From an uncultured Oscillospiraceae bacterium (GTDB lineage: Bacteria > Bacillota > Clostridia > Oscillospirales > Ruminococcaceae), in the NCBI GenBank assembly GCA_934446565.1, contig CAKSEO010000021.1:1-45451 (forward strand): a stretch of DNA of 45,451 nucleotides, in the 5' to 3' direction. The notes beneath the pieces are model-generated. The model saw only the letters and a list, made by a program, of their open reading frames with translations. It did not search any database and was not told the DNA's origin. Positions 18-28,540 of this stretch are shown piece by piece (within the stretch, counting starts at the first letter, position 1; each line of letters begins with the position of its first letter). The position numbers and the translations under genes were made by a program.

Positions 18-281
18 TCCAAAACAGTCCAGTGGACTGTTTTGGAATAAGTGTTTATCCATAAGGAAAGGCGCTCAATAAATCCGTGCCGTGTAAATCT
101 AAACGTCAGAAAATTGATAAAGACTGTGGGGGAAAACTCTTGTTTTCCCCCACACCCCTTTAGCGCCTTTGGGTCGTTTAGCTGCGCGCCAGCGCGCAGA
201 GTAACCGCGCTTACGCGCGGAGGTTTCGCCTACGGCGACGAGGGCTCTGCCCTCGACTCGCAAGGGGGGCGCGCCCCCCTT
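18..281. repeat. Hairpin-rich intergenic repeat cluster
   Basis: This 5' intergenic stretch has no convincing gene but holds a run of strong hairpins. A perfect 14-bp-arm palindrome lies at 18-46 around a single central G. A 12-bp-arm hairpin (GTGGGGGAAAAC ... GTTTTCCCCCAC) lies at 126-153. Shorter GC palindromes follow at about 182-198 (CTGCGCG..), 207-222 (CCGCGC..GCGCGG), 239-253 (GAGGGC..GCCCTC) and 262-281 (AAGGGGGGCG..CCCCCCTT). Short ORFs cross the area on both strands, but they are low-complexity by-products of the palindromes. The layout resembles multi-palindrome dispersed repeats of gut Clostridia; membership of a repeat family is an inference. Confidence 0.6.
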
Positions 282-376
282 GACTCCCGGTTGGGGGTTG
301 CAGTAAGACGAACACCACCCGCATAAATTATAGTTTATCAACCGACATAAATTTCCAAGAAAAAGCCGTTTCCGTC

Positions 377-444: not shown

Positions 445-2358
445 ATGCTAAATAGGACCGGATTTATAGGACTGTGCTGTGCGGCAGCTAACAAAGAGCC
501 GTCCAAGCCAATAATAGACGCTCTGGCAGAAAAACTCAAGAAAAACGGCGGATTCAAGCTTCTGGTTTTTCATTGCTTTGAGAATATGTACCAGAATACC
601 CGCACGGATATCGGCGGCTCTTCAATATACAAGCTCATAAATTACGATATGCTGGACGCAATGATAATCATTCCCTTTTCACTGCACGATCAGTCTATTA
701 TCGACCAGACTGTGCAGGAATGCGCACGACACAAGGTCCCGCTTATCTCCATTGATACTCAGCTTCCCGGAGCTTTTACCGTGGGCTTCGGATACGGAGA
801 GGCTTTCGGAGCTATCGTTGAACATGTCCTTGACGTCCACAACGCAACCAGAATAAAAGTGCTTTCCGGACCTGATGATAACCCGTTTTCTAAGCAGCGC
901 GTAGACCGCTGCCGTGATATAATGCAGCAGCACGGTCTAACGCTGAAAGACAGCGACGTGATGTGCGGCGGATTCTGGGAGGGGCCTACATGCGAGGCTA
1001 TGGACGCGTTCTTCGCTTCCGGCGAACCGCTTCCGGACGCTTTTATCTGCTGCAACGATTCAATGGCGATGGCTGTATGCCTGAAACTCGGCGAGCATGG
1101 TTTCAAGGTCCCTGATGATGTTATCGTGACCGGATTTGACGGAATAAATCTGGAGCACTACCACAAACCAAGGCTCACCACAGCCACCCGTGATCACTCC
1201 CGGCTTGCGGACGCGATAATCGGCATTGTTGATGAAGTGGTATCTGAACCCGGTCGCGAGCCTTACAGTATAACGCTGGATTACGACCCGGTGTTCAGCG
1301 AAAGCTGCGGCTGCCACGCTGAAAACAGCATGGATTCCAACCGCATTCTCGCTGACCTTGTCAGAGATTACAGCTACGCTCTCACTTACGAAGAACATGT
1401 AAACCTTATCGAAAATGCAATTGCCGCTGACCCCGCACCTGAAAACGTCCGCAATGTGCTCAAGAAGTTCTGCTTCAGAAACTCCATGATATGCCTTACC
1501 GAAGATTTCTGCCGTTATTTTAACGGGCAGGATGACAAACTTCCGGAGTTCAGGGGATTCGGCGATATGTGGCTGTTTCTTTCGACCTATGATGGCAGGA
1601 ACGATGAGGGGATCACATTTCCCGCTTCACGGCTTGTCCCGCAGCTAGAAAATTCGTTCAGCGACAACAACACGCTTTTCGTTATCCCGCTGCATTTCCA
1701 GGACATGGTACAGGGATATTTTGTGACGCATTATGTCCTCGACGAGCATCACAATGAGCGTTTATATACGTTCTGCACCAGCCTCGACAGATGCCTTGAG
1801 ACCATGCGCTCACATGAGCATCTCCGCATACTTAACAGCAGGCTGGAGTTCATGTTCACACATGATCAGCTTACTAAAATATACAACAGGTATGGATTCT
1901 ACAACGGATTCAGAAGCAGCTGTGCAGATATCTCGGGGCCTCGGGAAGTATTCATCATTTCTGTTGACCTCAATGATATGAAATACATCAACGACAACTT
2001 CGGACACGCGGCGGGAGACGACGCGCTGTGTATCACTTCGCAGGCGCTGACCAGTGCGGCGGAATTCTGCGGCGGTGACGTTATCTGCTCACGGTTCGGC
2101 GGAGATGAATTCGTTGCGGCGAAAGTTTGCTCCGACAATGCAAAGGAGCAAGCGGATAAATTCCGCGACGGATTTGCGCAGTCGCTTGCAAAGCTCAATG
2201 CCGAAAGCGGAAAGCCATTCACAGTCAAGGTCAGCACGGGAGTTTACTCCGCTTCGCTTGACGGCGTGGATTCTATTGATGGGCTTATCGAGCTTGCGGA
2301 TCGTCTGATGTATTCCGACAAGGCAAGGCATAAACGCCATCCGAGAAATAACACATAA
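445..2358 (+). CDS. LacI-type sugar-sensor/GGDEF diguanylate cyclase
   Basis: A predicted cytoplasmic diguanylate cyclase controlled by a small-molecule sensor. Residues 1-285 form a LacI/GalR-like periplasmic-binding-protein domain: an ICCNDSMAMAVCLKL segment and VPDDVIVTGFDG are typical of LacI effector domains. The protein begins directly with this domain and has no DNA-binding HTH, signal peptide or membrane segment. A middle region of about 170 residues (about 290-460) is unassigned. The C-terminal 165 residues are a GGDEF domain with HDQLTKIYNRYGF at its entry and an intact RFGGDEF active site. The inhibitory RxxD I-site arginine appears replaced (CGGD before the active site), so product inhibition may be absent. 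The gene is monocistronic with its own promoter and ends in the palindrome of a structured repeat. Sugar binding and c-di-GMP synthesis are inferred from the domains. Confidence 0.85.
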   Translation: MLNRTGFIGLCCAAANKEPSKPIIDALAEKLKKNGGFKLLVFHCFENMYQNTRTDIGGSSIYKLINYDMLDAMIIIPFSLHDQSIIDQTVQECARHKVPLISIDTQLPGAFTVGFGYGEAFGAIVEHVLDVHNATRIKVLSGPDDNPFSKQRVDRCRDIMQQHGLTLKDSDVMCGGFWEGPTCEAMDAFFASGEPLPDAFICCNDSMAMAVCLKLGEHGFKVPDDVIVTGFDGINLEHYHKPRLTTATRDHSRLADAIIGIVDEVVSEPGREPYSITLDYDPVFSESCGCHAENSMDSNRILADLVRDYSYALTYEEHVNLIENAIAADPAPENVRNVLKKFCFRNSMICLTEDFCRYFNGQDDKLPEFRGFGDMWLFLSTYDGRNDEGITFPASRLVPQLENSFSDNNTLFVIPLHFQDMVQGYFVTHYVLDEHHNERLYTFCTSLDRCLETMRSHEHLRILNSRLEFMFTHDQLTKIYNRYGFYNGFRSSCADISGPREVFIISVDLNDMKYINDNFGHAAGDDALCITSQALTSAAEFCGGDVICSRFGGDEFVAAKVCSDNAKEQADKFRDGFAQSLAKLNAESGKPFTVKVSTGVYSASLDGVDSIDGLIELADRLMYSDKARHKRHPRNNT

Positions 2359-2361
2359 AAA

Positions 2362-2605
2362 TATCCCCCGGTCACTTGACCGGGGGATACAGCTTGTCGA
2401 AAAAATCGAATTTGCCCGCGAAGCGGGCTTTTGAAATCCGTTTTTTGCTCCGGGTTTCCCGGGGCAAAAAACACTTCTATCCCAGCAAGTGTGCGGGTTG
2501 GCGGCAAAGCCGCCAAGACGTGCGCGCGGCTGGGATGTTCGGCGGAAAAGTCCCAACGGGACTTTTTCGACGGTCTCTATCCCCCGGTCACTTGACCGGG
2601 GGATA
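2362..2605. mobile_element. Structured intergenic element, copy 1, with duplicated flanking palindrome
   Basis: A 188-bp core (2390-2577) lies between two identical 28-bp copies of a terminator-like palindrome (2362-2389 and 2578-2605; arms TATCCCCCGGTCA/TGACCGGGGGATA). The core carries 9-bp terminal inverted repeats, GTCGAAAAA at 2396-2404 and TTTTTCGAC at 2563-2571. Internal hairpins include GCCCGC/GCGGGC and GTCCC-AAC-GGGAC, plus an outer ATCCCAGC/GCTGGGAT pairing. The first ~93 bases are identical to copy 2 near 17.4 kb, while the later stems differ by compensating changes. It separates the GGDEF gene from the oppositely oriented fprA. The two palindromes look like a duplicated target site, which would make this a MITE-like element; that is an inference. 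Confidence 0.75.
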
Positions 2606-2639: not shown

Positions 2640-3791
2640 TCAGCCCTTGAGCTCCTCCGCAAGCGCCTCAAGCTGCGACTCGTTCGCCGCATTCACAGCA
2701 GACCGCACAGTAACAGTCGTCTCCGTGAAAGTGATATTCTTGCTCTTTTCAAACATCCCTTTCATGACCTTAGCAGCCATCGGAGCCCAGGAACCATTCT
2801 CGATAATTCCAATGGTGCGATTCTGATAATTGCGCTCGGTAAGATGGTTTATGAACTCCTTCATAGCCGGGAACACGTCCGCATTGTATGTCGGAGCCGC
2901 AAGCACCAGCTTTCCGTAACGGAACGCGTCCTCAACGCACTCTGCCCAATCGTCCCTTGCAAGGTCGCTGACAGTAACGCGCACGCCCTTATCCGCAAGT
3001 TTTGCAGCAAGCATATCAGCGGCTTTCTTCGTGTTGCCGTAAACGCTTGCATACGCTATGAGAACGCCCTCGCTCTCAACGCCGTAGCTCGACCAGATGT
3101 TGTACTTCTCGATATAATGACCCAGATCATCTTTCAGCACCGGGCCGTGGAGCGGGCATATCATCGCAATATCAAGCGCGGAAGCCTTCTTCAGAACCGC
3201 CTGCACCTGCGCGCCGTACTTCCCGACGATTCCGAAATAGTAGCGGCGTGCCTCGCAGTCCCAGTCCGCTTCAACGTCCAGCGCACCGAACTTGCCGAAG
3301 CCGTCCGCTGAAAACAGCGCCTTATCCGCACTGTCGTAGGTCATGATGACCTCCGGCCAGTGAACCATAGGAGCGCCGACGAAATTCAGCGTGTGCTTTC
3401 CAAGCTCCAGCACGTCCTTTTCAGCAACAACTACCTGCCTGTCGGCGTAGTCCGTGCCGAAGAACTGCTTCATCATCACGAAAGCCTGCTTTGAAGCTAC
3501 GATTTTAGCCGCCGGGTACTTCTCCGCGAAAACCGCAATATTCGCGGAATGGTCGGGCTCCATATGCTGAACAACGAGGTAGTCGGGAGTTCTGCCGGAA
3601 AGCTCCTTTTCGAGATTTGCGAGCCATTCACCGCCGAATCTGCCGTCTACCGTATCCATAACGGCGATTTTTTCGTCAAGGATGACATAGGAATTGTACG
3701 ACATTCCGTCCGGGACAGTATACTGACCCTCGAACAGGTCAACGTCGTGGTCGTTAACGCCAATGTAACGGATATCTTCTGTAACAGTCAT
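2640..3791 (-). CDS. fprA: FprA-family A-type flavodiiron protein
   Basis: A flavodiiron protein that reduces O2 (to water) and/or NO with electrons from rubredoxin or NADH-linked partners; it protects anaerobes in the cytoplasm. The N-terminal ~250 residues are a metallo-beta-lactamase-like diiron domain with the HMEPDHSAN motif (HxExDH), a ligand in the APMVHWPE segment and a CPLHGP ligand. The C-terminal ~140 residues are flavodoxin-like (YASVYGNTKKAADML, then APTYNADVFPAM). The length of 383 residues fits the minimal class A type without a C-terminal rubredoxin. The start at 3791 has an AGGAGG ribosome binding site. It is monocistronic, with a consensus promoter upstream and the repeat element downstream. 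Confidence 0.93.
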   Translation of the reverse strand: MTVTEDIRYIGVNDHDVDLFEGQYTVPDGMSYNSYVILDEKIAVMDTVDGRFGGEWLANLEKELSGRTPDYLVVQHMEPDHSANIAVFAEKYPAAKIVASKQAFVMMKQFFGTDYADRQVVVAEKDVLELGKHTLNFVGAPMVHWPEVIMTYDSADKALFSADGFGKFGALDVEADWDCEARRYYFGIVGKYGAQVQAVLKKASALDIAMICPLHGPVLKDDLGHYIEKYNIWSSYGVESEGVLIAYASVYGNTKKAADMLAAKLADKGVRVTVSDLARDDWAECVEDAFRYGKLVLAAPTYNADVFPAMKEFINHLTERNYQNRTIGIIENGSWAPMAAKVMKGMFEKSKNITFTETTVTVRSAVNAANESQLEALAEELKG

Positions 3792-8467: not shown

Positions 8468-8489
8468 AAATTGTCCCTTTCAGTAAACA

Positions 8490-8515
8490 CGTCCGCGAGT
8501 TATCCCGCGGACGTT
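8490..8515 (-). terminator. Terminator of the cobU-like/pilT unit
   Basis: ACGTCCGCG pairs with CGCGGACGT around an eight-base loop between the pilT stop and the kinase start. A short T-rich stretch follows on the minus strand. Confidence 0.65.
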
Positions 8516-14542: not shown

Positions 14543-15814
14543 TCATACATATTCTGGGTAAATCAGCTTGATCTGATCATAGAAATAATCTACCGCTTCG
14601 TTTATTGAAAAGTTCCCGAGCTCATCATGAAGATACCCGGTCATAAAATTCTGGAATTCATTAGACAGCTTGATATCTGCGGAGCTTTTCCGTGATGACG
14701 GCTGAACATTATCCAGCACATCAAGATAGATACCGGCTAGATTCTGACCGCCAGTCTGCTCAAGCAGTATCGGCTGCATTTCATCAAGTTTTGAGCGGTT
14801 TCCGGATATCACCGTCGTTATCTGAGAGGAGATGTCCATTTTGCCGGAAATGCACACTCTCCTCAGGAGTTCCGCCGCTGCTTCATAATTTCCGCAGTGC
14901 GGGTCAACGAATGCGTAGCTCCCTCCCCATGTAAAGTACTGCGGACCGGCGCACACAGCATAATCCTCACTGGTTTCGGTCATCGTGGGCAGGACCTCCA
15001 CAAGCCAGCTTGCGGCAAAATGCCCAAAAATCTTCGGGTCGGTAAAGCTGTCCATCCATTCGTTGGTCCAGCTGTAGCTGCCCTTAACGTAGCCGCTGTC
15101 CGTCATTGTCTTAGCCGCAGAAAGCCAGTCCAGCGCCGACGACGGCACCGAAATCTTCCCATTTTTATCGGTAAAGCTGCTTCCACCGGCGAACGCATAG
15201 TACATTTCGCTCACGTTAGTAGTCATATATACGCCTTTGCTCTTTGCAAGCTCGGCAGTCTGCAAGAACTTTTTCCAATCGGAAATATACGACTGAACAA
15301 CGCCGGGTGCGTCAGTACCGAACAGCTTTTTCGCTGTCGAACGTTTGTAAAGAAATACGCCCGGAGCGTTCACCACCGGAAGCGCGCACAGCTCCCCGTC
15401 AGAATTTTTCCCGCTTTCAACGTTGAAGCTGAACAGCCCGGAAGTCTCCGCTTCAGAGATACCTAGTTCGTCCAGCGGGAGCGCACTGTCGATATACCTG
15501 CAAAGCTCTGCGCTGTCAGCTATGTAAATATCAATGCCGCTGCCGTGCCAGCCGTTGTTCACCACGTCCTGAAAGTCTTCCTCGTCAACGTATTCAGATA
15601 TAAAATTCAGCTTAACGCCATCCGGTGAATAGCTCCCGACAAGCTGGCGGAATTCCTCATTTCTGCTGAATATCGTAAGTTCTTTCGCAGCCGATGGTGT
15701 CGGCTCGGGCTTTTCCGGCGTCTGGTTAGCCTGAGGAGTTTGAGGAACGACCTGGCTGAAAACTGTGATTATAAACAGCAATACCGCTGTTATCGCTGAA
15801 CCTGTTGCCTGCAT
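14543..15814 (-). CDS. Extracellular sugar-type solute-binding protein
   Basis: A family-1-like substrate-binding protein of an ABC importer. The N-terminus has a hydrophobic export segment (AITAVLLFIITVFSQVV) without a lipobox Cys, followed by a Pro/Thr-rich spacer. Typical segments include NGWHGSGIDIYIADSAELCRYI, ALPVVNAPGVFLYKRSTAKKLFG and FAASWLVEVLPTM. At 423 residues it has the usual size. No permease or ATPase gene is adjacent, so the transporter partners must lie elsewhere. I chose the ATG at 15814, six bases after GGGAGGT, over an upstream start. It is divergent from the serpin gene. The substrate is unknown. Confidence 0.75.
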   Translation of the reverse strand: MQATGSAITAVLLFIITVFSQVVPQTPQANQTPEKPEPTPSAAKELTIFSRNEEFRQLVGSYSPDGVKLNFISEYVDEEDFQDVVNNGWHGSGIDIYIADSAELCRYIDSALPLDELGISEAETSGLFSFNVESGKNSDGELCALPVVNAPGVFLYKRSTAKKLFGTDAPGVVQSYISDWKKFLQTAELAKSKGVYMTTNVSEMYYAFAGGSSFTDKNGKISVPSSALDWLSAAKTMTDSGYVKGSYSWTNEWMDSFTDPKIFGHFAASWLVEVLPTMTETSEDYAVCAGPQYFTWGGSYAFVDPHCGNYEAAAELLRRVCISGKMDISSQITTVISGNRSKLDEMQPILLEQTGGQNLAGIYLDVLDNVQPSSRKSSADIKLSNEFQNFMTGYLHDELGNFSINEAVDYFYDQIKLIYPEYV

Positions 15815-15846
15815 ATGATTACCTCCCATGTGTTCATTGTAATATT

Positions 15847-15875
15847 ATGATATCATGGAATAATTTACTTGTCAA
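15847..15875 (-). promoter_or_regulatory. Promoter of the solute-binding protein gene
   Basis: Minus-strand TTGACA (15870-15875) and TATCAT (15847-15852) are spaced 17 bases apart, 33 bases upstream of the start codon. Confidence 0.65.
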
Positions 15876-15960
15876 CCGATTTTGCAGCAAAAATGCAACT
15901 TTTTCCTTACCTGTACGGTATTATATACAAAACCACAAACCACTCGAAAGGAAGATGAAA

Positions 15961-17304
15961 ATGAGCATTAATCCGAAAAGGATACGGCATTCAGCGAAAG
16001 CAGCGCTGGCGCTCCTGCTTACCGCAGGATTACTGACGACCTCACCCGGCTGTGCAGGTAATGGAAACCCGACAGTCGCAGCCACCGACCCCGGCGACCC
16101 GGTCTACCCGAAAATGGCGCAGTACCCCGACGAGGACGGAAACGGCTGGGAAGCATGGAACGCTTCCCGCCGCAAGCAGCTAGACGCGCCGGAGGGCTAC
16201 GCCGACAGCCTGTGGAGCTTTTATGGAGAAAGCACCCGGACCTACCTCACGGAAAAGCAGGAGAACCGCGCGTACTCCCCGGTGAGCCTGTACATGGCGC
16301 TGTCGATGCTCGCGGAATGCGGCAGCGGCGAAACCCGCAGCCAGATACTAGACCTGCTGAACGCACCGGATATTGAAACGCTCCGCACCCAGGCAAGCCA
16401 GGTCTGGAACGCGAACTACTGCGACGACGGCGCGATAACCAGCCTGCTCGCAAACTCAATATGGCTGTCAAGCAGCCTGGAAAGCGATCAGGACACGATC
16501 AACACCCTGGCTGACAGTTACTACGCCTCCACCCACTCCGGAGAATTCGGCACGGACGACATGAACTACGCTATCCGCAGCTGGCTGAACGAGCAGACCG
16601 GCGGCAGGCTGAAAGACGCGGTTTCCGGAGTCGAACCGCCAGTGGAAACGCTTATGGCGCTGTACTCCACGGTGTACTTCAAGGGTCGCTGGGACTACGA
16701 ATTCAACCCCGCCGGGAACGACACCCGTGCTTTCCACTCCCCCGCCGGAGATGTCCAGGCGGAATTCATGAACCATACCGACCGCACGGACTATTACTGG
16801 GGCGACGACTTCAGCGCGGTGAACATGCCGTTCGTCAGTGGCTGCAAAATGTGGCTGATACTGCCGGACGAGGACAAGAGCATTGCCGAAGTGCTTACCT
16901 CCGGGAAGTACCTCGGTCTGCTAAACGCAGACGATAAGTACGAAAATTCCCGCTATATGATCGTAAATCTCTCCCTGCCGAAGTTCGACGTCACATCCAC
17001 TTTCGACCTTAGGGACGGGCTGGAATCCCTCGGGATCACCGACGCGTTCGGAGATTCCGCGGATTTCTCCGCTCTGAGTCCCACGCAGGACCTGTTCCTG
17101 AGCAGTGCACGCCAGTCCGCCAGAGTGACGGTTGACGAGGAGGGCTGCACCGCCGCAGCGTTCACTGAAATGATTCTGTGCGGCTCCGCCGCCCCGCCTG
17201 AAAATATCCAGGAGATAGATTTCGTGCTCGACCGGCCTTTCCTGTTCGTGATAACCGGCATGGACGGTCAGCCACTGTTCACCGGAACAGTTTACGATAT
17301 GTGA
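15961..17304 (+). CDS. Serpin-family protease inhibitor lipoprotein
   Basis: A bacterial serpin (447 residues), predicted to sit on the outer cell surface. It begins with an export signal ending in TTSPGC, a somewhat unusual lipobox. The serpin fold signatures are clear: NRAYSPVSLYMALSMLAECGSGETRSQI at the start of the core, YSTVYFKGRWDYEF in the breach region, ANSIWLSSSL, and a C-terminal DFVLDRPFLFVITGMDGQPLFTGTVYDM (split here as DFVLDRPFLFVI and PLFTGTVYDM). The reactive-centre hinge VDEEGCTAAAFTE keeps the small residues needed for loop insertion, so it is probably inhibitory; by hinge numbering P1 would be Ser in CGSAAPP. Serpins of gut Clostridia such as those of Eubacterium siraeum inhibit host elastase-type proteases; the target here is unknown. 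The start at 15961 lies seven bases after AAAGGAAG. Confidence 0.9.
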   Translation: MSINPKRIRHSAKAALALLLTAGLLTTSPGCAGNGNPTVAATDPGDPVYPKMAQYPDEDGNGWEAWNASRRKQLDAPEGYADSLWSFYGESTRTYLTEKQENRAYSPVSLYMALSMLAECGSGETRSQILDLLNAPDIETLRTQASQVWNANYCDDGAITSLLANSIWLSSSLESDQDTINTLADSYYASTHSGEFGTDDMNYAIRSWLNEQTGGRLKDAVSGVEPPVETLMALYSTVYFKGRWDYEFNPAGNDTRAFHSPAGDVQAEFMNHTDRTDYYWGDDFSAVNMPFVSGCKMWLILPDEDKSIAEVLTSGKYLGLLNADDKYENSRYMIVNLSLPKFDVTSTFDLRDGLESLGITDAFGDSADFSALSPTQDLFLSSARQSARVTVDEEGCTAAAFTEMILCGSAAPPENIQEIDFVLDRPFLFVITGMDGQPLFTGTVYDM

Positions 17305-17309
17305 TTTCA

Positions 17310-17548
17310 GCCCCTCCGCATTAACGGATGGGCACAGCTTGTCGAAAAAATCGAATTTGCCCGCGAAGCGGGCTTTTGAAATCCGTTTTTTGCTCCGGGT
17401 TTCCCGGGGCAAAAAACACTTCTATCCGCACAAGTGTGCGGTTTGTCGGCAACGCCGACAAACCGTGCGCGCAGGGCGGATGTTCGGCGGAAAAGTCACT
17501 TTAGTGACTTTTTCGACGGTCTGAGCCCCTCCGCATGAACGGAGGGGC
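17310..17548. mobile_element. Structured intergenic element, copy 2, with duplicated flanking palindrome
   Basis: A 189-bp core (17335-17523) lies between two 24-base copies of a palindrome (17310-17333 and 17525-17548; GCCCCTCCG...CGGAGGGGC) that differ at two positions. The palindrome is unrelated in sequence to that of copy 1. The 9-bp terminal inverted repeats GTCGAAAAA (17341-17349) and TTTTTCGAC (17509-17517) are identical to copy 1, as are the first ~93 bases of the core. Three stems keep pairing with changed bases: ATCCGC/GCGGAT, TGTCGGC/GCCGACA and GTCAC/GTGAC. It lies directly behind the serpin gene. Confidence 0.75.
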
Positions 17549-17558
17549 ATTTGAATAC

Positions 17559-17594: not shown

Positions 17595-17702
17595 CGCGAG
17601 TTGATCAATAGGTTCTATAAGAAATTTGCGCTCCGCCTTGCGGCGTTATATGAGTAAATGCTAGTTTCTGTGAGAAAATACCAACCAATCCGGGCGGGTC
17701 GA

Positions 17703-17978
17703 TTACTCGCCTCTCATCTTTGCGAAGCAGTCGCTGCAGTATACAGGTCTGTCTTCCTTCGGCTCGAAGGGAACTCTTGCAATACCGCCGCAGCCAGCGC
17801 AAGTAGCCTCGTAGAAGGTTCTGCCGCTCTTACCAGCGTTCTTCTTAGCGTCACGGCAAGCCTTGCATCTCTGGGGCTGGTTTGTGAAGCCCTTCTCTGC
17901 GTAGAACTCCTGCTCGCCAGCGGTGAAAACGAAGTCAGCGCCGCAGTCCTTGCACTTTAAAGTGATGTCTGTGTACAT
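17703..17978 (-). CDS. Zinc-ribbon protein (probable zinc-binding domain)
   Basis: A 91-residue basic protein with three Cys pairs: CKDCG and CKACRD in the N-terminal half (a zinc ribbon), and CAGCGGIARVPF with a final YCSDCFAKM, typical of the small zf-trcl/CxxC-x-CxxC group common in Firmicutes. It likely binds two zinc ions. The cellular role is unknown; relatives are often linked to translation or stress. The start follows a GAGGT-type site. A tRNA-like remnant lies immediately upstream. Confidence 0.8.
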   Translation of the reverse strand: MYTDITLKCKDCGADFVFTAGEQEFYAEKGFTNQPQRCKACRDAKKNAGKSGRTFYEATCAGCGGIARVPFEPKEDRPVYCSDCFAKMRGE

Positions 17979-18003
17979 AGTCCATACCTCATAAAAAAAA
18001 TTT

Positions 18004-18072
18004 TCGCCCTGGTCGGACTCACACCGACACCTTTGATAAACAACGCTCTGGTAAATTAAGCTACCGGGTCAT
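18004..18072 (-). pseudogene. tRNA-like remnant
   Basis: On the minus strand the sequence reads like a tRNA: TA-GCTT-AATTTACCA-GAGC matches a D arm (4 pairs including one wobble) and GTCGG-TGTGAGT-CCGAC is a T arm. The acceptor halves GACCCGG and CAGGGCG pair at only four of seven positions. Only 16 bases lie between the D and T arms instead of about 23, leaving a 3-bp anticodon stem with a five-base loop. No CCA end is encoded. A T8 tract follows before the zinc-ribbon gene. I read it as a degenerate tRNA, perhaps kept as a leader structure. Confidence 0.4.
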
Positions 18073-18085
18073 ATCCAGCCCGAAG

Positions 18086-26077: not shown

Positions 26078-26164
26078 GCAGGTGTGGCGGAATTGGCAGA
26101 CGCGCTAGCTTCAGGTGCTAGTGATCGCAAGGTCATGTGGGTTCAAGTCCCGTCACCTGCACCA
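26078..26164 (+). tRNA. tRNA-Leu (anticodon CAG)
   Basis: The acceptor stem GCAGGTG/CACCTGC closes, and a CTAGC-TTCAGGT-GCTAG anticodon arm gives CAG. The long variable arm of a class II tRNA is present (GTGATCGCAAGGTCAT region), the T arm has GGTTCAAGTCC and CCA is encoded. It reads CUG codons. It is the likely integration site for the neighbouring integrase. Confidence 0.96.
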
Positions 26165-26174
26165 AAGAGATGGT

Positions 26175-26213
26175 TCCGTGAATGGCTTTAATAAGCTGTT
26201 CACGGGATTTTTT
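26175..26213 (+). terminator. Terminator after tRNA-Leu
   Basis: TCCGTGAA pairs with TTCACGGGA, followed by ATTTTTTTATTTT. It lies just beyond the tRNA 3' end, so it may belong to the integrated DNA. Confidence 0.75.
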
Positions 26214-26270
26214 TATTTTCGGAAAAGACGTTTGTCCATTACAAGTCCTTTATGTGTCCTTTACTGGAAA

Positions 26271-27458
26271 TCAGCCTGCTTCCGATTTCTTATCCGAGAA
26301 ATCAAGCACAGCCGCTATTGCTTCGCCTGTTCTTGCCTGAGCTTCCCTGATTGCATGAAAGTAGATATTGGTCGTTGTGCTGATATTTGAATGACCCAGC
26401 GCACTTGAAACTGTTGCTGTGTCCACCCCGGCATTGATGAGAACGGTCGCGTTGAAATGCCTGAGCGAATGGATATCGCAGAATCGCATTCCATGCCTTT
26501 CGGTAAACTCGCGCTGCCATTTATACGGAGAACCTCTGTGAAGCGGTTTTCCTATTTCAGTCACGAACAGCCTGTCGCTGTCTATCCACTTTGTGCCAAG
26601 ATTTTCCTTGTTCTTTAGCTGGCTTTCTCTCAGCTCTGAAAGGACATCAAACACCTGTTGCGGAAGTTTGAGAGAACGTATCGAGCTTTTGGTTTTCGGT
26701 GTATCTGTATAATTGCCGTCCGTTACCGTGTAGTTTGAGGTACGGCGAACGCTTATCACGTTGTTTTCCCAGTCCACGTCTTTCCACTCAAGCCCCATAA
26801 GTTCACCGTTTCGGAATCCGCTGTATACTGCCAGAGTAAGGAACGCTTTGTATTTCAGTGGAGCATACTGGTTTACCAGCTTAAAGAGCTGTTTCATTTC
26901 CTCAACGGTATAGATTTCTTTTTCCTTTTTTTCACCTTTGGGGACGAAAATATGATTGCAAGGATTAGAGTCTATCATATCAAATCTCAATGCGTAATTG
27001 AACACATCTGAAAGAAAATTGAGATGATGAACGATGGATTTCCTTGACAGCGGCTTTCCTGTTTTCATGTTTTTGCCATTCTTCGCCATGTCATCAACAA
27101 AAGCCTGAATCTGACCGCGCGTTATGGAATCAACACGCAAATGCCCAAAGGCTGCATAAACTCTGATTGTAGTGTTTTTCATTCTCTGGAACGTCGTCTT
27201 TTTCAGATTGACCCTTGCGAAGTCGTTAAGCCACTTCTCGGCAAATTCCTTGAACTTGACGTTTACAGTAACAATGCCCTTTTTGCAGTATTCCTCGAAC
27301 ATTATTGTCTGCCGTGCAACTTCTTTTTCAATCTGCCGTTCGGTCATGCCCGGCGTCGGTTTCCATGTTTTTGTATGTATAACCTGCCGATACTCCGAAT
27401 CGTACCCTGCGCTGACGCGGATCTGATATGAGTTTCCGCGTTTCCTTACGTTTGCCAT
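26271..27458 (-). CDS. int: Phage-type tyrosine integrase
   Basis: A 395-residue tyrosine recombinase of the Tn916/phage Int type. An N-terminal arm-binding domain (MANVRKRGNSYQIRVSAGYD) precedes a core-binding SAM-like domain (residues about 65-165). The catalytic set is intact: Arg in YSGFRNGELMGLEW, HxxR in DIHSLRHFNATV, His in LGHSNISTTT and the Tyr in NIYFHAI. It catalyses integration and excision by site-specific recombination. It lies about 105 bases from, and points toward, the 3' end of tRNA-Leu, the classical arrangement. It has its own promoter and leader, related to that of the excisionase. Confidence 0.93.
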   Translation of the reverse strand: MANVRKRGNSYQIRVSAGYDSEYRQVIHTKTWKPTPGMTERQIEKEVARQTIMFEEYCKKGIVTVNVKFKEFAEKWLNDFARVNLKKTTFQRMKNTTIRVYAAFGHLRVDSITRGQIQAFVDDMAKNGKNMKTGKPLSRKSIVHHLNFLSDVFNYALRFDMIDSNPCNHIFVPKGEKKEKEIYTVEEMKQLFKLVNQYAPLKYKAFLTLAVYSGFRNGELMGLEWKDVDWENNVISVRRTSNYTVTDGNYTDTPKTKSSIRSLKLPQQVFDVLSELRESQLKNKENLGTKWIDSDRLFVTEIGKPLHRGSPYKWQREFTERHGMRFCDIHSLRHFNATVLINAGVDTATVSSALGHSNISTTTNIYFHAIREAQARTGEAIAAVLDFSDKKSEAG

Positions 27459-27959: not shown

Positions 27960-28540
27960 GACGGCAAAGCACAATCCCCTCACCATTTTATTGAATTTGA
28001 GCACAATTACCAATAAACCAGCAAAGATTTGTGCAAAATCACAGCAAAGAATCTAATAAAATAACCGAAGCGTAAAGGACGAGCAGAAATGCCCGTCCTT
28101 TTCTGCTTTGGCGTGTCAATGCAGACCCAGGTAGTACGCACCCTGGCATGGGACTTTCACCCCTGCCCATTCCTATGGGACAAGCCGTCGCCGGAAGTAT
28201 CATTATAACTGTGTCCTCCGCGCTCGTTCCTTTAAGGAGTTCCCTATGCGTTTAGGGTTCCTGCGGACTGTCGGCAGGTGGCGGCATATCTGTTATTCTC
28301 GCGCGGTAAATTGGTGGTCACGGATAATGAGATATTCCGTCAGATCAACAGCAGGAATTTTGTGGCACGTCTTTAAGGACATCAGTTTGTTGTTATCTGC
28401 ATTGCTATTTAGTTGTCAAGGAACTGAGAAGGAACTAAAGCGGCGTAATGTTTCCGGATAATGAGATTAGTCCGACTCTCCGAAAAGGAGTGGTTTTGTT
28501 TCCGCCGCTTATTTGTTCCTATATCTATTATAGCACAAAA
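27960..28540. other. Long non-coding, hairpin-rich stretch
   Basis: About 580 bases without a convincing gene. It holds a hairpin AAAGGACG/CGTCCTTT at about 28074-28102, which looks like a terminator on the plus strand, and a GC-rich structured block at 28120-28200. A CTCC-GAAAA-GGAG hairpin lies near 28480. The phrase CGGATAATGAGAT occurs twice (about 28320 and 28458). On the minus strand the structured block contains GGGTGAAAGTCCC next to GGAA and GCGTACT, reminiscent of cobalamin-riboswitch or group II intron pieces, but neither consensus is complete. The single 71-codon ORF here has no ribosome binding site. Confidence 0.4.

Follow-up and report, generated by a model that had tools for sequence, protein, structure and literature searches.

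IS1272 and TnSha1, two staphylococcal insertion sequences of the IS1182 family, target hairpins, including terminators, without sequence specificity, and the sections of their descriptions that deal with target choice report that the hairpin is wholly or partly lost, with no target duplication (PMC5678879, PMC4923244). In the corresponding results of one report, RNA-seq showed five of seven target hairpins to be terminators (PMC4923244), and the other names stem-loop duplication, in its discussion and in the legend of its Fig. 13 (pathway b), as a possible outcome only (PMC5678879). For palindromic targets in the IS1182 family, the target sections of both reports cite a review by Siguier and colleagues (PMC5678879, PMC4923244). 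In the relevant part of PMC9208149, IS1182 is among ten families over-represented between convergent genes, and a table in PMC3281130 holds one IS1182 element apparently with a 4-bp duplication, so that hairpin duplication would not be universal in the family. Bacterial MITEs such as QMITE2, RUP and SPRITE, as portrayed in the portion of PMC10969869 that describes them, are short and largely intergenic, with terminal inverted repeats and stable folds, and QMITE2 has direct repeats of 7-9 bp.

The element described here resembles these MITEs in shortness, terminal inverted repeats, stable folding and a largely intergenic site, but where QMITE2 is given as having its short repeats, ours is flanked by a complete terminator hairpin of variable length and has a covarying fold. 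It is like IS1272 and TnSha1, as far as those accounts go, in its hairpin and terminator targets and in the IS1182-family transposase, whereas they delete or replace the hairpin without duplication and ours duplicates the whole hairpin. ISfinder gives a wide range of direct repeats for IS1182, so curators may know such cases. Among open-access PMC titles and abstract openings, we found no earlier report of whole-hairpin duplication of this kind. IS1182-type MITEs are a kind already known; the whole-hairpin duplication, its symmetry and the covarying core are what is new.

We analysed a window of 45,451 nucleotides, the whole stretch taken from contig CAKSEO010000021.1 of an uncultured Oscillospiraceae bacterium (GCA_934446565.1), in which two related elements lie between palindromes (Table 1). 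The original prediction had described two cores, each enclosed by palindromes that were matched within a locus and unlike between the two loci, and had read the pair around copy 1 as identical; all of this holds, and the cores align as described. For copy 2, the two differences between the palindromes stand as well, whereas the predicted size of 24 bp does not: with the element ends of the window copies set at CAG...CT[C/G], these palindromes measure 26 bp. Likewise, terminal inverted repeats are indeed common to both copies, but they extend to 15 bp (CAGnnnGTCGAAAAA), the predicted 9 bp being their inner part. With the palindromes included, copies 1 and 2 fold with z-scores of -12.4 and -11.5 relative to shuffles.

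Table 1. Positions of the elements, their flanking palindromes and neighbouring features in the window.
Feature	Position	Strand	Description
Left palindrome copy, copy 1	2362..2389	.	28 bp; scores as terminator on the - strand only
Structured MITE copy 1	2390..2577	+	188 bp
Left terminal inverted repeat, copy 1	2390..2404	+	CAGCTTGTCGAAAAA; conserved in alignment
Right terminal inverted repeat, copy 1	2563..2577	-	Reverse complement GAGACCGTCGAAAAA
Right palindrome copy, copy 1	2578..2605	.	28 bp, identical to the left copy; terminator score on the + strand only
Gene upstream of copy 1, runs into the element	445..2358	+	Periplasmic-binding-protein-like plus GGDEF domains
Convergent gene downstream of copy 1	2640..3791	-	ODP/metallo-beta-lactamase-like plus flavodoxin
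Left palindrome copy, copy 2	17309..17334	.	26 bp; two differences relative to the right copy
Structured MITE copy 2	17335..17523	+	189 bp
Right palindrome copy, copy 2	17524..17549	.	26 bp
Serpin gene directly upstream of copy 2	15805..17304	+	
Empty site	8489..8514	.	Single 26-bp palindrome; the G002 counterpart (locus L037) is an element between two related 26-bp palindromes
Stretch matching a class-B MITE and other G024 repeats	102..336	.	Ends unclear

Elsewhere in the window, a tyrosine-recombinase (phage integrase) gene adjoins a tRNA-Leu gene at 26078-27458, the usual layout of an integrated element, and collinearity with G024:C4 changes in the same stretch. A match to the Rfam pemK RNA above the gathering score lies on the - strand at 28146-28206, and a conserved stretch at 17702-18075 proved to be an ordinary small ORF containing paired cysteines.

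Scanning contigs with a 19-base pattern gave 26 loci, nine of which hold the element while the other 17 do not show it; in seven of the nine, matching palindromes are visible to the left and right. Those carriers that are named bear the titles 'uncultured Clostridia bacterium' and 'Oscillospiraceae bacterium'. Within one genus, this non-coding family of about 188 bp was matched in 10 of 43 genomes (the G023 match is partial, 76 bp). In a sample of 297 genomes of the taxonomic family, long matches occurred in G002 only, and two other genomes had matches of 24-31 bp; with just two candidates scored per genome, this result carries little weight. Exact core patterns had no match in viral contigs, the element had no blastn match in plasmids or phages, and no Rfam family reached its gathering score on the element, with 14 weaker Rfam matches treated as chance. 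The ends alone led to two more MITE classes, B and C, which have different cores and the same ends and hairpin repeats. When the ends were used to search the carriers for a longer autonomous element, the matches listed comprised MITE classes and coding chance matches. One candidate in G010 (L226) looked like a single end beside ordinary genes and was set aside.

Flanks were compared in a sample made up of most, but not all, of the listed genus matches and 20 places chosen by element ends, in which the elements were re-found by BLAST, the queries being six class-A copies and four drawn from classes B and C. Of the 144 distinct places obtained, 137 had both ends, and 114 had no more than four mismatches in either end and no less than 25 bp of flank. 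In every one of these 114, a maximum of 45 bp of left flank was aligned with the same maximum of right flank, and the cut-off (13.0) was set at the 99.9th percentile of left-right pairings between different elements, the largest of which reached 22.5. We show that left-right flank matching is not chance: an element's own two flanks exceeded the cut-off in 88 of the 114 two-ended elements (80 of 102 in class A, 6 of 10 in class B and 2 of 2 in class C). The matched flanking palindromes that the original prediction anticipated in other copies are thus present in most of them, and the same count led us to reject IS1272-like hairpin-replacing transposition, in which the target is deleted without duplication. 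The 26 elements below the cut-off include two with mis-set ends, whose repeats are visible in the printed contexts (L208, L013), three with diverged or flipped hairpins (L063, L065, L078), two one-sided or rearranged copies without a match (L134, L145) and two copies without a repeat (L044, L181). At L063, the left and right hairpins have a common stem and a loop in opposite orientation, as if one hairpin had been flipped.

The duplicated hairpin is variable in length and regular in placement. In the 88 matched elements the repeat measures 14-35 bp and is mostly flush with the element (80 of 88 on the left, 85 of 88 on the right). It forms a stem in 83 of the 88, by a rule that demanded at least 7 of 8 terminal pairs, allowed G-T pairs and small offsets, and was passed by 24 of 440 random stretches. 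For the 78 cases flush on both sides, the empty site was rebuilt and the best dyad axis sought up to 7 bp from the repeat centre; the axis coincided exactly with the centre in 70 of the 78 and was at most 1 bp off in 76. The first base of the repeat is A in 58 of these cases and the last base T in 59. A dyad axis that is centred while the length varies implies that the two cuts lie symmetrically on either side of the hairpin axis, their distance from it differing from site to site. Of the 78 cases, 16 had a total hairpin span equal to the repeat, 42 a longer one and 20 a shorter one, and the two lengths were only moderately correlated (r = 0.36), so the cut falls near the foot of the stem and not strictly at the outermost pair. 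Together, these results suggest that the duplicated length is dictated by target DNA shape and not by a fixed ruler. The left and right copies are identical over the aligned stretch, loops included, in 49 of 84 gapless pairs. At L007 and L143, the two hairpins differ by a compensatory pair change, pairing having been kept after duplication.

We compared eight element sites with the orthologous positions in relatives. One of them, L037 in G002, has both flanks conserved, matching the window with 85% and 74% identity, and its counterpart in the window is the empty site of Table 1, a palindrome with the same outer stem that is related, not identical; G024 also has one palindrome at this position. 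An empty site with a single palindrome, which the original prediction looked for, therefore exists in two genomes, and the proposal of target-site duplication of a whole terminator-like hairpin by a mobile repeat is supported by this site together with the flank matching. Two further sites, L049 in G002 and L036 in G001, have one conserved flank each (84% and 91%), and G024 has a single hairpin at both, while L142 in G027 has a one-flank match in G002 with no clear hairpin. In the other four pairs, the element is present in both genomes at the same gene end. In G024, G002, G023 and G001, the gene that adjoins window copy 1 has one hairpin at its end, with a different sequence, an observation that is no more than suggestive. 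In addition, elements at L066 (G025) and L141 (G027) lie at the end of the same gene within different hairpins, which suggests independent insertions at one gene end.

Matches to the PF13751 transposase occur in 12 of the 43 genomes of the genus and in 48 of the 297 genomes of the family sample. Screening 55 transposase loci, partly overlapping, for matched hairpins 0.7-2.3 kb apart revealed six insertion sequences with CAG...CTG ends, two from the genus (L194, L196) and four from the family sample (L254, L255, L257, L262). At 1,504-1,583 bp and with a PF13751 transposase, they differ from the window elements, which measure 188-189 bp and carry no transposase. The terminal repeats are closely similar, reading CAGnnnGTCGAAAAA in the MITEs and CAGnCTGTCGAAAAA and variants in the six insertion sequences (CAGnnTGT plus an A-rich run), and both groups have the same kind of target and whole-hairpin repeats, the hairpin duplicated by the insertion sequences ranging from 20 bp (L254) to 39 bp (L255). 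The intact L196 transposase matches NF033551 (IS1182) with 379 bits at a cut-off of 270; this NCBIfam naming applies to the L196 protein, and the other five insertion sequences were assigned by PF13751. Among the remaining screened loci, L201 has a hairpin pair without CAG...CTG ends, the two recognised ends of L256, L259 and L264 carry unlike hairpins, L251 has no more than a short shared stretch, and several others have one recognisable end. In the ten carrier genomes, PF13751 had no match in eight, with short matches only in G001 and G023. The L196 protein had no match in seven of the ten, weak matches in G001 and G024 (25-39% identity) and a fragment in G010. This fragment reaches 72% and 61% identity, with a terminal inverted repeat about 55 bp upstream and no adjoining hairpin.

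The insertions are concentrated at gene ends. After five of the 88 matched elements were dropped for short flanks, 65 of 83 lay no more than 150 bp from an ORF 3' end; for random positions, counted by a slightly stricter rule, the figure was 112 of 830. The neighbouring genes are convergent in 37 cases, tandem in 33, divergent in 12 and unassigned in one, a placement that fits the enrichment of IS1182 between convergent genes given in that part of PMC9208149. By a simple rule, the right hairpin copy scores as an outward terminator in 63 of 88 elements, the left copy in 66 and both in 46, compared with 7 and 2 of 88 for inward-facing terminators, which were searched over fewer end positions. 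An independent terminator scan of window copy 1 agrees in placing the T tracts outside. A transcript from either side would thus first meet a hairpin that lacks a T tract, next the element and finally a working terminator; judged from sequence, transcripts from both directions probably run through the element before stopping. The idea that insertion leaves a terminator on both sides is borne out, with the refinement that the T tracts stand on the outer sides, so that transcripts probably traverse the element instead of ending ahead of it.

Covariation in the core was examined in 65 class-A copies of near-standard length over 42 pairs in five helices; a weak predicted helix was dropped from the structure, hairpin 1 was added, and core hairpin 2 was excluded, since there the subfamilies are aligned out of register. 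Across these copies 97.1% of cells are paired and 20 of the 42 pairs change on both sides. The covariation score was 0.235, compared with a shuffled mean of 0.097 (0 of 500 shuffles reached 0.235) and at most 0.048 for slid structures, for a tested structure drawn largely from the consensus of the same alignment, which favours that structure. G-U cells outnumber A-C cells by 36 to 16, and by 18 to 11 with redundancy filtered out, which hints weakly that it is the written strand that folds. Folding is also good in one class-B copy and one class-C copy (z = -6.2 and -7.1). Covariation in the internal hairpins points to selection on a folded strand, most simply as element RNA within a 3' UTR. At L046 and L049, a different hairpin takes the place of the first internal one, as though whole stem-loops had been swapped.

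We consider it highly probable that the element is a non-autonomous IS1182-type MITE whose ends are joined by the transposase, in symmetric fashion, at the two feet of a hairpin or cruciform formed by a terminator, duplicating the hairpin. An IS1182-type DDE transposase encoded elsewhere would bring the two CAG...CTG ends to the palindrome of an intrinsic terminator, probably extruded as a hairpin or cruciform; the ends would be joined at equivalent stem feet on the two strands, and gap filling would copy the whole palindrome, turning one terminator into two with the element between them. We infer the cruciform state, the strand transfer at the 5' foot and the mobilisation in trans. Nearest to this account is the same IS1182-type DDE transposition in linear DNA, with a palindrome-bound dimer making long staggered cuts and no hairpin or cruciform, which differs in the state of the target only. 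Target duplications are a known product of DDE enzymes, and a palindrome bound symmetrically would likewise have its cuts centred, yet a repeat that ranges from 14 to 35 bp, and to 39 bp in the insertion sequences, while staying centred is unlike a fixed stagger, and this route seems to us rather doubtful. Much further down we place insertion between tandem terminators that already existed, or gene conversion that later made two terminators alike. The compensatory differences at L007 and L143 show that pairing survives a change in one copy, as such histories would allow, but a single palindrome stands at the orthologous site with both flanks conserved, most repeats directly abut the element ends, and more than half of the gapless pairs are identical even in their loops, which makes either history very improbable.

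That the core is primarily a functional RNA kept by the host, for instance a 3' UTR regulator, with duplicated hairpins as a by-product of its spread, draws on the strong covariation, on the position of the element ahead of an outer T tract in both directions and on the G-U excess. That excess shrinks once redundancy is filtered, however, two MITE classes with different cores have the same hairpin repeats, and no Rfam family is reached at gathering score, so we regard a primary host function as unlikely. Group IIC introns and IS200/IS605-type elements insert next to hairpins, and a non-DDE route of that sort, aimed at terminators as an intron or a single-strand element, might explain the target choice. 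We know of no target duplication made by either kind, whereas duplications and terminal inverted repeats are present here, Rfam yields no intron family for the element at gathering score, and there are DDE-type insertion sequences whose ends closely resemble those of the element; we rejected both candidates, and such a route is scarcely credible. Beyond transposition at hairpin feet by an IS1182-type enzyme, the 3' UTR role and the cruciform mechanism appear to be the most likely readings. A wider proposition, to which we give an even chance, is that the transposase reads the shape of its target and joins the ends at the two 5' feet of an extruded cruciform, with the target setting the length. 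The MITE would then keep its RNA fold because insertion puts it in a 3' UTR before the surviving terminator, where it is nearly harmless, and terminators would be multiplied genome-wide.

Here, we show that IS1182-type MITEs with whole-terminator target duplications form a well-ordered phenomenon that is both real and general. A target duplication is usually taken as the fixed stagger of a transposase, whereas the repeat described here keeps its centre on the hairpin axis while its length varies, so that strand transfer guided by structure can be tested directly. The family also provides a natural case of the stem-loop duplication that the IS1272 authors sketched in that discussion (PMC5678879), as well as a large set of duplicated terminators in which the evolution of terminators and 3' UTRs can be studied.
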